The translations under genes were made by a program, and so were the position numbers. A stretch of DNA of 64,000 bases from positions 48,959,501 through 49,023,500 of the forward strand of contig NC_068558.1 of NCBI RefSeq assembly GCF_022201045.2, given 5' to 3'. This stretch comes from Citrus sinensis. Taxonomy: Eukaryota; Streptophyta; Magnoliopsida; Sapindales; Rutaceae. Below the pieces are notes generated by a model. The model had not been told where the DNA came from. It saw nothing but the letters and a program-made list of their open reading frames with translations, and ran no database searches. This document shows, in pieces, positions 3,230 to 17,211 of this stretch (its first letter is position 1; each line of letters begins with the position of its first letter).

Positions 3230-3880
3230 GAAACGAAAAGAAAATCTCAAATCCGCTTGTTTTATTTTTCTCGAAACTGTTTCGTGAATCTTTTATCGAA
3301 ATTGCAAATAAGTTCCCTTCATTCTTCAAATTTTATTAGTAGTTGTTTATTATTTTTCTTGAATCTTTTATCATATTCATTCCAAACAGACAGTATACTT
3401 GGTTTAAAATTTCAAAATTTTAAGATTTTCTCAAATCCCTAGGGTCTCATTTTAGACTTAGCATACCAACATCCACTTCTGACTCTTTTTGCTTTCTATT
3501 GGATCACTCATAAAGTTTTCGTGAAAAACGAAACTATCACGTGAATCTTTTCAGAAATTGGAAAGAGGTTAATTTACTCTTCATATTTTATTTAATTATT
3601 TAATTCCCTTAATTTTTTTTTTAATTTTTACAAAATGGACCCTTAGGGTTTCAAATTCCAGAACGGCGATTTCGTCTGAGCCTATGAGTTCGTTTTTCAT
3701 TCAAACCCCAAATTAACGAACAAGAAAGATACTATATCATGAACCTTGATGGGAATTGGAAAGAGTTTTCCCCACACCTGATTTTTTTTTTTGTTGTTCA
3801 TTTAGTTCTCTAGAATCTTTTTCATTTTCGGTTGAAGTTGGGTTTCAATTTCAAAATGGCGATTTCATCAACACAATTCT
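3230..3880 (+). repeat. Three degenerate direct repeats ending over the BAM2 start codon
   Basis: Similar blocks recur at about 3268 (GAAACTGTTTCGTGAATCTT), 3529 (GAAACTATCACGTGAATCTT) and 3727 (GATACTATATCATGAACCTT). Each is followed by GAAATTG or GAATTGGAAAGAG-like sequence. The second and third copies also share a distal block: GGGTTTCAAATTCCAGAACG then GCGATTTCGTC at about 3646, and GGGTTTCAATTTCAAAATG then GCGATTTCATC at about 3840, the latter containing the BAM2 ATG. Period is about 200-260 bp with heavy divergence, so this is an old local duplication of the leader and start region. Confidence 0.7.
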
Positions 3881-6800
3881 GCGATATCTTGAGGGCTCCG
3901 GGTGCTTCATCTCCAATTACTTCCTCGTTGTCACATAAGCAAACGCTTTTCACTTCTCAGAGAGTGCCTGTAACTTTTCATAGCCTAACGTATTGCAATG
4001 TAACGTATTGCAATGCGTGTCGTTTTAAGCGTACCCAGTTTCGAACTCTGGCGGCAATTGGAGAGTGGGAAGAAGAAACTGAAGACGATCCTCATGGCGG
4101 TGATTCTGTGGATGCTGCTGATGATATGAAAGTAATTTTGTTGTTGTTGTTATTATTATTATTATTTACTCTATATTTTGTGAATTTATCTGTGTCGTTA
4201 TGTCATTTAGGAATTTGATTACTGGTTTTAAAGTTTGACTAATGCCATAAAAGTCCGAAAGAAAAGGGAGCAAATGTGACACAAATGAGTGAGACAAACA
4301 TGAGAAATTAACAAGCGAGGGTATTATTATGATTACATGTTTTAATCTGTTGAGAGCATTAGTCAAAATATTTGTATCGGAGATGAAATTAGAGAAACAG
4401 ATGGATGATAATTGGTGAATGACAAAGTGTTTAATTTAGAGACTATTAGAGAACTAAGTTAAAAATTTAGGTTTTCTTGAGTTTGAAAAAATTTGATACC
4501 CCTTCTCATAGTTTTCCACAGGATTCTTGCTCCTTTCTTTTTTTTTTTTTGGTTTTTTATTCATTCCCTTTTCTTTTTACAGGCTGTACACTTGCCCCCA
4601 AAGTTGCCAGAACGTGATTTTGCTGGAACGCCCTATGTTCCCGTCTATGTGATGCTACCTGTAAGTTTATTGATTTCTGCTTGTCACTCTATGAGAAACT
4701 GTATTCTGTTTATCTTCATAGCTCATTAATTCCATTTTCTAGATCATAATTTACTTTCATGTTCCATCGGTTTATTTTTGTGTCCATATACCGGCTTCAA
4801 TTGAGTTAGAGGTCAAAATATTTTTCTAGTGACACGTAGTGGATAAATCATTGTCTAGACTCCAGATCTGTTTGCTAAAAGACAAAAGAAAAAAATTTCT
4901 GGCGTTTTCTCATCAACTTGACTGATTGCAAGACATATTTTGTTGGGTGTGGCAGCTTGGTATCATTGACATGAACTGTGAGCTGGTTGATCCAGAAATT
5001 CTTGTGAATCAGCTGAAGATTTTGAAGTCTATTAATGTTGATGGTGTTATGGTCGATTGCTGGTGGGGAATAGTTGAGGCACATACTCCTCAGGTGTATA
5101 ATTGGAGTGGCTACAGAAGGCTCTTCCAGATTGTGCGTGAACTTGAGCTTAAACTACAGGTCTCTTCTTATTTACCTTTTGTGTTTTGTTAGAGCAATAC
5201 TTGAAATAATTAATGCTGTATTTACTCTGTACATTTGGGAACCAGTGCTGATCTCACACTGTTGAATTGTGTCAGATAAAAGTTTAGCATTCTAGTTGAT
5301 TGGCAGCAATTCTCTAATTCTGATTCGACATGGAATGGAAAAGAAAGATTGAATTATGCAATTCTCACGATAATATTGTCAACTTTTACATAGATGTCTC
5401 GCTTTTTTATCTTCCTCCACATGTGTAACAACATCCTTTAATCGGCCAAAGTTTTAACATTCCTACTAGTCTACTCTTTTCGTAGTACTGTTATGCCAGT
5501 TTAACTTAGAAAGGGCCAAAAAACTAATCTGCATTTGACTCCTAAATTCGACATGATTAAATAGTAAGTTTTGCAGCATTCACAAACAGTTTTGTATGAT
5601 AGAGGTAAATATTGAAGCAAACAAACTTATCTCATGTCTTTTTATTGGTCTCAGGTTGTCATGTCATTTCATGAATGTGGAGGCAATGTTGGTGATGATG
5701 TACATATTCCACTGCCTCAGTGGGTAATGGAAATCGGCCAAAATAACCCTGAAATATATTTCACAGATAGAGAAGGAAGACGTAATTCTGAATGTCTGAC
5801 ATGGGGAATTGACAAGGAACGAGTTTTAAGAGGTCGGACTGCTGTTGAGGTATTGTGCAACTAAGATTATCACATAATGCTAGATTTTTTTGTTTCCATC
5901 TTTTGAGTAAGAAACTCTCTGTTTTGATTTTTCATCATTAACACATTTTTGAGTTTAATATCAAAAAATGAATTAGAAAGTGTTTGTACCTGTGCCTTTC
6001 CTAGTTTTGTCATATTTTATGTTCATTCTTCTGTTTCATTTCTTGCGGTGATCTATGGCATTGGTCCGTGACAGCGGCACTTTAACACCAGCCCAGTACG
6101 CACATGGATCTGTTACCCATCTTAAGACATGGTCCAATTCTATCACTAAATGCTATATTGTATCACTTTTTTCAGCCTATTTTCATGTCTACTAATAACA
6201 GTATTCTTCAGAAGAAGTTTATTTCCACATGAACTGGTCCAGTTATGGCTTTGTGTTTGAAGTGTATGCTTGGGAATTGAGCTTGGATGTTTTTTGCTTA
6301 TTTATTTTATTGTCCTATTTGTTCAGCCATGCCATTATTGCAGAGTTGAGTTTTAATACTGCTGTATGTTGTAATTTTTGTTCGGTAACAAATTGCCCAG
6401 GTTTACTTCGACTACATGAGAAGTTTTCGCGTAGAATTTAATGAGTTTTTTGTGGATGGAATAATTGCTGAAATCGAAGTTGGTCTAGGTCCTTGTGGAG
6501 AGCTTAGGTATCCAACTTATCCCGCAAAGCATGGTTGGAAATATCCTGGCATTGGTGAATTCCAGGTACATTTTTGAGTAATTGGTATTTGGAACCGGAA
6601 TCGACCCTACTCGTTATGGAGTTATGATTATCTAATGAATTACTTTTTCCTTTTTTCTTTCTCTCTTCATTTTTCAGTATTTTACAGAGTTATGACTGGT
6701 CCTTAGCTTCTCTTTATTAGTATTTTGTTTAAAAACCATATGCAATTCTTCAATGCATTAATACAAACTGTTTCTGTTCAGTGTTATGATAAGTACTTGA

Positions 6801-16100: not shown

Positions 16101-17211
16101 TAATAATTATTTTTATAATAGTATATTAATTAATTAATAATATTAATATTAAATATTGTGATTATTTATTCAGGAACAATAATTATTAATATATTATTGT
16201 TAATAATATATTAATTAATAGTAATAATTATATTAATTCATTAATAATAATATATAAATTAATTATATTAATGATTATTATAATAGTACATTAATTAATT
16301 AATTAACTATAATAATAATAATATATTAATTATTGTGATTATTTATTCAAGAAATATAATTTTTAATAATTATAGTTAATAATAATTAATGTACTATTAT
16401 AATAATAATATATTAATTATTGTGATTATTTATTCAAGAAATATAATTTTTAATAATTATAGTTAATAATATATATATTTATTAATTAATCAAAATATAT
16501 TAATTATTTATTTATAATATTATATTAATTAATTATAAAAGAGGACAAAGTGGGCATTTTCAATTTTGGGGGAGGGCAAAATGGTCAATCCCTGGAATGA
16601 GAGACTCATTCCCACCTCTTCCCATGGGAATCAATCTTCCATTCTTCATTCCCAAATAGTGGTGGGCCCCACCATTCCGATTTCGATTCCGATTCCCCCA
16701 TCCAACTAAACGCACCATAAATGTAATTTGGCTTAAATTTGATTTGTAAGTCTTTTGACAGTTAATGTGATAATTGTCAATTTCAGGTGATGAATGCTGC
16801 ATGGGATGTTTGCACACCAGTGGCTAGTGAGAACACACTCCCTTGCCATGATAGAGTAGGCTATAACAAGATTTTGGATAATGCCAAGCCCCTTAGTGAC
16901 CCAGATAGAAGACACTTTTTGTCGTTTACGTACCTTAGGCTCGGCCTAGGTCTCATGGAGAGAGAAAACTTTATGGAATTTGAACGATTTGTCAAGAGGA
17001 TGCATGGTAAGCTTTGAAAAGGAGACTGTGTTGTTGCAACTGTTATTGGTTTAATACATCTGCTGTTATTGATGGTGCTCAGTTTGAAATACGGCATAGG
17101 AAAGAAATGAGGATTGCAACTGATTTGAGTCAAAATCTATTCGGTAGGAACCGTCATTCACTTGTCTTATTTTTTGCTGCAGGGGAAGCAGTTCTGGATC
17201 TCCAGGTGTAG
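10173..17211 (+). CDS. BAM7: Beta-amylase-like transcription regulator with BZR1 domain, BAM7 type
   Basis: Exons: 10173-10622, 11231-11515, 11802-11879, 12149-12352, 13304-13498, 13918-14082, 14406-14666, 15091-15309, 16787-17006, 17183-17211, giving 701 residues. Residues 1-37 are very acidic. A BZR1-type DNA-binding domain follows at about 80-150 ([32 protein letters not shown]). Then comes a Ser/Pro-rich linker (about 151-245) and a full GH14 domain. BAM7 and BAM8 of Arabidopsis are nuclear and bind CACGTG-type elements through the BZR1 domain. The flexible loop GGNVGD (348-353) and both catalytic glutamates (Glu438, Glu596) are present. The inner loop reads LNFASAEL instead of the usual LNFTCxE, so its Thr is replaced by Ala. 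That fits the family's reported lack of amylase activity. Intron 8 holds a 1.27-kb transposon. The start is the first ATG of a [11 protein letters not shown]-terminus matching the family. Confidence 0.94.
15453..16717. mobile_element. Harbinger-like non-autonomous DNA element in BAM7 intron 8
   Basis: The element is flanked by TAA on both sides (15450-15452 and 16718-16720), the target duplication typical of PIF/Harbinger. Its ends are imperfect inverted repeats: TGCTACGTTTACTAAACTG at the left, and TGGTGCGTTTAGTTGG as the reverse complement of the right end. Both subterminal regions are rich in GGAATCGGAAT or its complement. The interior is almost pure A/T and contains tandem repeats. No transposase is visible. 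It lies wholly inside an intron. Confidence 0.8.
15781..16480. repeat. Long-period AT tandem repeats inside the intronic element
   Basis: A block beginning TTATTGTGATTATTTATTCA, followed by ATAATTATTAATAATTATTG-like sequence, recurs five times, at about 15781, 15972, 16153, 16330 and 16417. Spacing is about 191, 181, 177 and 87 bp. The last two copies share the same variants (TTTTTAATAATTATAG), so they look like the most recent duplication. Confidence 0.8.

Follow-up and report, generated by a model that had tools for sequence, protein, structure and literature searches.

We analyzed a 64,000-nucleotide stretch of Citrus sinensis DNA (assembly GCF_022201045.2, contig NC_068558.1, positions 48,959,501 to 49,023,500 of the forward strand), in which two beta-amylase genes, BAM2 and BAM7, lie next to each other. 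The whole stretch is referred to below as the window, and all positions are counted from its first nucleotide. Our aim was to describe how the two genes are built, how old their relationship is, and what kind of history would account for it.

A BAM2-BAM7 tandem

BAM2 consists of nine coding exons (3856-8380, plus strand) that specify 562 amino acids, and BAM7 of ten (10173-17211, plus strand) that specify 701 (Table 1). BAM2 is directly 5' of BAM7, head to tail, and the coding regions are 1,792 bp apart. This confirms the tandem proposed in an initial annotation of the same DNA, whose end coordinate, 17211, is the stop of BAM7. Intron borders are GT-AG throughout the two genes, both frames are open from end to end (562 and 701 codons), and neither protein has an additional match elsewhere within the 64-kb window (E up to 1).

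The domain contents of the two products differ. Pfam identifies Glyco_hydro_14 in BAM2 (1.7e-112; residues 114-534) and no BES1_N, while BAM7 carries BES1_N (3.8e-40) as well as Glyco_hydro_14 (2.3e-98; residues 267-685). Residues 77-147 of BAM7 match BZR1 in the Protein Data Bank (PDB), the BZR1 chains matched being 5zd4 and 7vn2. All four of the soybean residues Asp101, Glu186, Thr342 and Glu380 have equivalents in BAM2; BAM7 retains those of Asp101 and of both glutamates (Glu186 and Glu380), with Ala in place of Thr342. The BAM7 inner loop is NFASAEL, compared with NFTCVEL in BAM2, and the equivalent of soybean Ala382 is Thr. Identity to soybean at 28 listed positions is 23 for BAM2 and 20 for BAM7, positions 342, 343 and 382 being lost in BAM7 only. 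The soybean PDB chain 1wds, which presumably has lost activity, has Ala at 342 in the alignment. BAM7 thus has a BAM2-like amylase domain with an altered inner loop, which agrees with a published report that the catalytic inner loop is poorly conserved in BAM7 (PMC6394054).

The N terminus of BAM2 has a transit-peptide-like composition, and a plastid location is putative. Only one acidic residue occurs in positions 1-60, and 11 (Asp/Glu) in the 30 positions 61-90; an acidic region preceding the catalytic domain, one of the features by which BAM2 is recognized (PMC6102588), is present. The same source names five marker residues of AtBAM2 (Phe238, Trp449, Trp456, Ser464 and Asp490; PMC6102588), and their equivalents, with numbering anchored on Trp449, are found in both BAM2 (5/5) and BAM7 (5/5).

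Table 1. Coding exons of BAM2 and BAM7, the region between them, and other genes of the window
Feature	Position	Strand	Remarks
BAM2 exon 1	3856-4131	+	putative chloroplast transit peptide, then acidic region; aligns with BAM7 exon 2
BAM2 exon 2	4583-4660	+	78 nt
BAM2 exon 3	4956-5159	+	204 nt
BAM2 exon 4	5655-5849	+	195 nt; flexible loop with Asp101 equivalent
BAM2 exon 5	6401-6565	+	165 nt; catalytic Glu, equivalent of soybean Glu186
BAM2 exon 6	6782-7042	+	261 nt
BAM2 exon 7	7191-7409	+	219 nt; inner loop NFTCVEL with Thr342 equivalent
BAM2 exon 8	7559-7778	+	220 nt; Ser-Glu pair, equivalents of AtBAM2 Ser464 and soybean Glu380
BAM2 exon 9	8310-8380	+	71 nt, stop included
BAM2-BAM7 intergenic region	8381-10172	.	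1,792 bp; probable BAM7 promoter
BAM7 exon 1	10173-10622	+	acidic N terminus and BES1_N/BZR1 DNA-binding domain; no BAM2 counterpart found
BAM7 exon 2	11231-11515	+	Ser/Thr-rich linker; aligns with BAM2 exon 1; internal in-frame ATG at 11261
BAM7 exon 3	11802-11879	+	78 nt
BAM7 exon 4	12149-12352	+	204 nt
BAM7 exon 5	13304-13498	+	195 nt; Asp101 equivalent retained
BAM7 exon 6	13918-14082	+	165 nt; Glu186 equivalent retained
BAM7 exon 7	14406-14666	+	261 nt
BAM7 exon 8	15091-15309	+	219 nt; inner loop altered to NFASAEL
BAM7 exon 9	16787-17006	+	220 nt; Glu380 equivalent retained
BAM7 exon 10	17183-17211	+	29 nt, stop included
Class 3 lipase	19986-20759	-	Pfam
Ribosomal protein L36e	27231-27548		Pfam
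Cyclic-nucleotide-binding fragment	29838-30242		below Pfam cut-off
F-box/kelch	37126-38469		Pfam
Ankyrin	42032-42466		Pfam
Deaminase	48093-48395		Pfam; riboflavin-pathway type by a weak RibD_C neighbor
BSK-type (brassinosteroid-signaling kinase) gene	58159-59317	-	TPR domain; second piece below Pfam cut-off; about 41 kb from BAM7

Exon correspondence and age of the probable duplication

Exons 2-8 of BAM2 and 3-9 of BAM7 have equal lengths (78, 204, 195, 165, 261, 219 and 220 nt) and phases in seven cases out of seven, as first annotated. The accompanying statement that the two genes differ only at their ends needs revision: the BZR1 exon (BAM7 exon 1) is indeed unique to BAM7, but it is the only exon without a counterpart in BAM2, given that BAM2 exon 1 can be aligned to the linker exon of BAM7 (exon 2) and that the final exons (71 nt in BAM2, 29 nt in BAM7) have GEAV-DL-V in common. 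Each of the nine BAM2 exons therefore has a BAM7 counterpart. A recent duplication does not follow from equal exon lengths alone, because conserved intron positions define entire BAM subfamilies (PMC6102588).

The 1,342 shared nucleotides are 77.6% identical at the DNA level and 77.0% at the protein level. Over this length, synonymous divergence (dS) is 1.24 and nonsynonymous divergence (dN) 0.127, for a dN/dS of 0.10 (Nei-Gojobori count; one exon saturated), and 72 of 142 four-fold sites differ. These values, with synonymous divergence near saturation, argue for an ancient duplication and for selection on both proteins. Gene conversion between the neighbors, which would maintain their similarity, was considered as an alternative. 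The longest identical run is 34 nt, a mildly unusual length that 65 of 2000 codon shuffles reach, and dS is lowest, at 0.70, in the 195-nt exon; in six of the seven exons, however, dS is at least 0.87, one of them being saturated. Recent conversion is not indicated by the 34-nt run, and we judge such maintenance very improbable.

Homology between the introns of the two genes was rejected. The best blastn match among introns and flanks (E 2.3e-4, 98 nt at 72%) is to an AT-rich block of BAM7 intron 8, the remaining ones are shorter, with E of at least 0.003, and all were taken as chance or simple sequence. The AT-rich block itself (15450-16740) is composed of repeated units; by eye, it has inverted GGAATC-rich ends and the look of an insertion of the miniature inverted-repeat transposable element type.

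A third protein, chain 7upv, carries only the label beta-amylase in the database, and we take it to be a BAM8. Over 428 columns, BAM2 and BAM7 are 77.3% identical to each other, compared with 60.5 and 59.6%, respectively, to this BAM8-like chain. The informative columns of a quartet number 4, 3 and 2 for the three topologies (428 columns; four sequences only). With soybean BAM5 as outgroup, 25 changes are unique to BAM7 and 10 to BAM2 (p 0.011, 428 columns); with 7upv, the counts are 24 versus 20 (p 0.55, 440 columns). Faster evolution of BAM7 is thus only weakly suggested.

Putative transit-peptide exon, linker exon and possible alternative starts

At the protein level, the alignment of BAM2 exon 1 with BAM7 exon 2 covers most of the exon and extends as far as the splice site. 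Its local score is 67, compared with shuffle means of 25-28, and none of 2000 shuffles reaches it in any of six settings, which were combinations of alignment mode and shuffle block. Scored separately, the two halves of the exon pair still outdo every one of 2000 shuffles, by a small margin in the case of the front half (52 versus 51 for the best shuffle), and BAM2 exon 1 scores at chance level against BAM7 exon 1. A tblastn search of positions 1-4131 with BAM7 exon 2 gives E 2e-4. Homology of the two exons is likely on these sequence comparisons, and would fit an ancestral short transcript with its start in intron 1 and continuing into exon 2. We do not claim that the correspondence is unreported.

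Two further ideas were examined. Neither exon, taken alone, matches a Pfam family (E up to 10). The BES1_N score rises from 126.6 to 142.6 bits when BAM7 exon 2 is added, and three shuffles of the first 65 residues of that exon gave 134.0-140.0; with BAM2 exon 1 added it is 132.7 bits, compared with 128.9-134.2 for four shuffles. Because the shuffled controls score close or higher, the gain is mostly composition and does not speak for derivation of the linker/transit exon from a BZR1 partner. A BZR1 relic 5' of BAM2 was rejected, since tblastn with BAM7 exon 1 gives zero matches in positions 1-4131 (E up to 10).

BAM7 could still have a dual function, a second, internal start giving a plastid form too, in which case the pair would be only partly specialized. 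The in-frame ATG of exon 2 is followed by 35 Ser/Thr-rich residues of which one is acidic, and maize BAM7 operates with two start sites (PMC10400028). This stretch may, however, be a mere linker; in-frame stops immediately 5' of exons 2 and 3 mean that the reading frame does not continue back into introns 1 and 2; and the changed inner loop would probably make a plastid form a poor enzyme. We therefore hold a dual-function BAM7 to be improbable. BAM2-BAM7 fusion transcripts would be permitted, as 57 of the 72 pairs of a BAM2 donor and a BAM7 acceptor keep the frame.

The intergenic region contains a GC- and CpG-rich stretch 5' of BAM7, at about 9001-9500. CACGTG boxes occur at 8991, 9091, 9154 and 9163, so that about 180 bp hold four of the 15 present in the whole window. 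Four boxes in 8901-9400 have a P of 0.0002 in 5000 Markov simulations, for a region picked after the boxes had been seen. Autoregulation is a possible explanation of the cluster, as are ordinary promoter G-boxes. The CACGTGTG form of the box, which we take to be the BAM7/8 target, is absent from the 64-kb window. Further CACGTG boxes, at 23070, 23098 and 24005, lie within a region (22843-24663) where stretches of 300 nt (99%) and 207 nt (95%) recur in direct orientation at distances of 935 and 930 bp; this pattern probably reflects the local duplication of some 0.93 kb.

Interpretation and comparison with known systems

From the gene order, the exon correspondence, the old and constrained divergence and the residue changes, all directly observed, we consider it highly probable that the locus is the standard eudicot BAM2-BAM7 tandem, produced by an old duplication in place and followed by plastid and nuclear specialization. 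In the published model, a dual-function ancestor resembling maize BAM7 preceded the duplication (PMC10400028). Such an ancestor would have joined amylase exons to a linker exon and to an exon for the BZR1 DNA-binding domain and, in that model, would have made nuclear and plastid proteins from two starts. After duplication in place long ago, the upstream copy would have shed the BZR1 exon and kept only the role of a plastid amylase, a predicted location, with the putative transit peptide and the acidic region supplied by exon 1, which corresponds to BAM7 exon 2. The downstream copy would have retained the BZR1 exon to give a protein predicted to be nuclear, in which the amylase domain is conserved as a fold and, given its changed inner loop, probably weak or inactive.

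Several observations weigh against this interpretation. The reverse tblastn search, with BAM2 exon 1 against the BAM7 region, finds the same exon alignment only at E 0.92, and the DNA similarity of the exon pair is confined to about the last 60 nt, with one 1-nt gap, at a score reached by 7 of 1000 codon shuffles. As evidence, the marker residues carry little weight and are unspecific, the BAM8-like chain 7upv having four of the five. In PMC6394054 there is no single BAM2 clade, the BAM2 of Brassicaceae and Cleomaceae being nested within BAM7, and BAM2-like genes are treated as repeated losses of the BZR domain; this tree is harder to square with a single early tandem duplication in eudicots. 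The nesting would also be compatible with independent family members having been brought together by rearrangement instead of arising by local duplication, as would the near-saturated synonymous divergence and the quartet counts. Such a rearrangement is nevertheless extremely improbable: BAM2 and BAM7 are closer to each other than to 7upv, the first exon of BAM2 matches the linker exon of BAM7, a jujube pair is alike in sizes, intron numbers, order and strand (PMC9195466), and the corresponding grape genes, for which strand is not stated, are 2.8 kb apart (PMC8004407).

The initial annotation had envisaged a tandem copy followed by a split of roles, and had called the pair an intermediate state. 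Duplication with a plastid/nuclear split has support here and agrees with the published interpretation (PMC10400028). The notion of an intermediate is not, as the tandem is usual in eudicots (PMC10400028), synonymous sites are near saturation, no BZR1 match was found 5' of BAM2, and the BAM7 loop is changed. The pair reads as a finished division of labor, not as a young intermediate.

A class 3 lipase gene, a ribosomal L36e gene and a cyclic-nucleotide-binding fragment lie 3' of BAM7. Two minus-strand open reading frames examined in addition to the BSK-type gene, up to 61352, have no Pfam match. We take Arabidopsis AT3G49050 to be a lipase. It is the gene given for an uncharacterized member of a 13.8-kb almond region that also includes a thioesterase (AT4G00520, AT1G01710) and a beta-amylase (AT2G45880), the listing of that region naming no BAM2 (PMC10623407).

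By code number, Arabidopsis BAM2 (At4g00490) adjoins ATMYC1 (At4g00480) and BAM7 (At2g45880) adjoins the bestrophin-like VCCN2 (At2g45870). A bestrophin gene is present in the window at 51442-52167 (minus strand; Pfam), and 32 residues at the left edge, which have no Pfam match, are presumably similar to the start of an ATMYC1-type basic helix-loop-helix protein. This suggests that the two Arabidopsis loci may be remnants of duplicated segments, each keeping one tandem member, and the two-chromosome arrangement would be a derived exception. The suggestion is weakened by the existence of VCCN1, a close paralogue of VCCN2: because the two split within Brassicaceae, the bestrophin gene points equally to both. 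A tentative extension of the tandem-duplication scenario, rather unlikely to hold in full, is that one ancestral exon met two fates, as transit peptide and acidic region in BAM2 and as linker in BAM7, that the BAM7 version perhaps still serves as a transit peptide from the ATG at 11261, and that Arabidopsis lost opposite tandem members from two duplicated segments. The pair offers a clean example of a two-product gene apparently splitting into two specialized neighbors, and the exon correspondence a way into the question of how one sequence could give rise both to a transit peptide and to the linker of a transcription factor.

BAM2 is immediately upstream of BAM7 in most eudicots, suggesting tandem duplication (Ozcan and Monroe 2023, per commentary PMC10400028). 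The window has the same order, with plastid-type and BZR1-type products, and we found no departure from this pattern. Maize BAM7 likewise combines a BZR1 exon with amylase exons, in ten exons, but both products come from one gene (PMC10400028), whereas the window has two. Passages in papers on kiwifruit, sugar beet and cotton are silent on BAM2/BAM7 order. In grapevine, VvBAM2 (554 amino acids) and VvBAM5 (699 amino acids) are the homologues of AtBAM2 and AtBAM7 on chromosome 15 (PMC8004407); their gene numbers are two apart, so another gene model may intervene.

The jujube genes ZjBAM3 (549 amino acids, eight introns) and ZjBAM4 (703 amino acids, nine introns) are called a tandem pair (PMC9195466), and presumably correspond to BAM2 and BAM7, names that the passages of PMC9195466 on this pair do not use. 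They share one strand (minus) with the shorter gene upstream, so that order and intron numbers are as in the window. Their GH14 domains occupy residues 117-537 and 271-691, compared with 114-534 and 267-685 here, and the gene spans are about 2.2 kb apart, compared with 1.8 kb between our coding regions (PMC9195466). ZjBAM4 is predicted to be nuclear, and ZjBAM3 to reside in the microbody, not the plastid (PMC9195466). The arrangement is already known, and the window adds one more instance to the published pattern.

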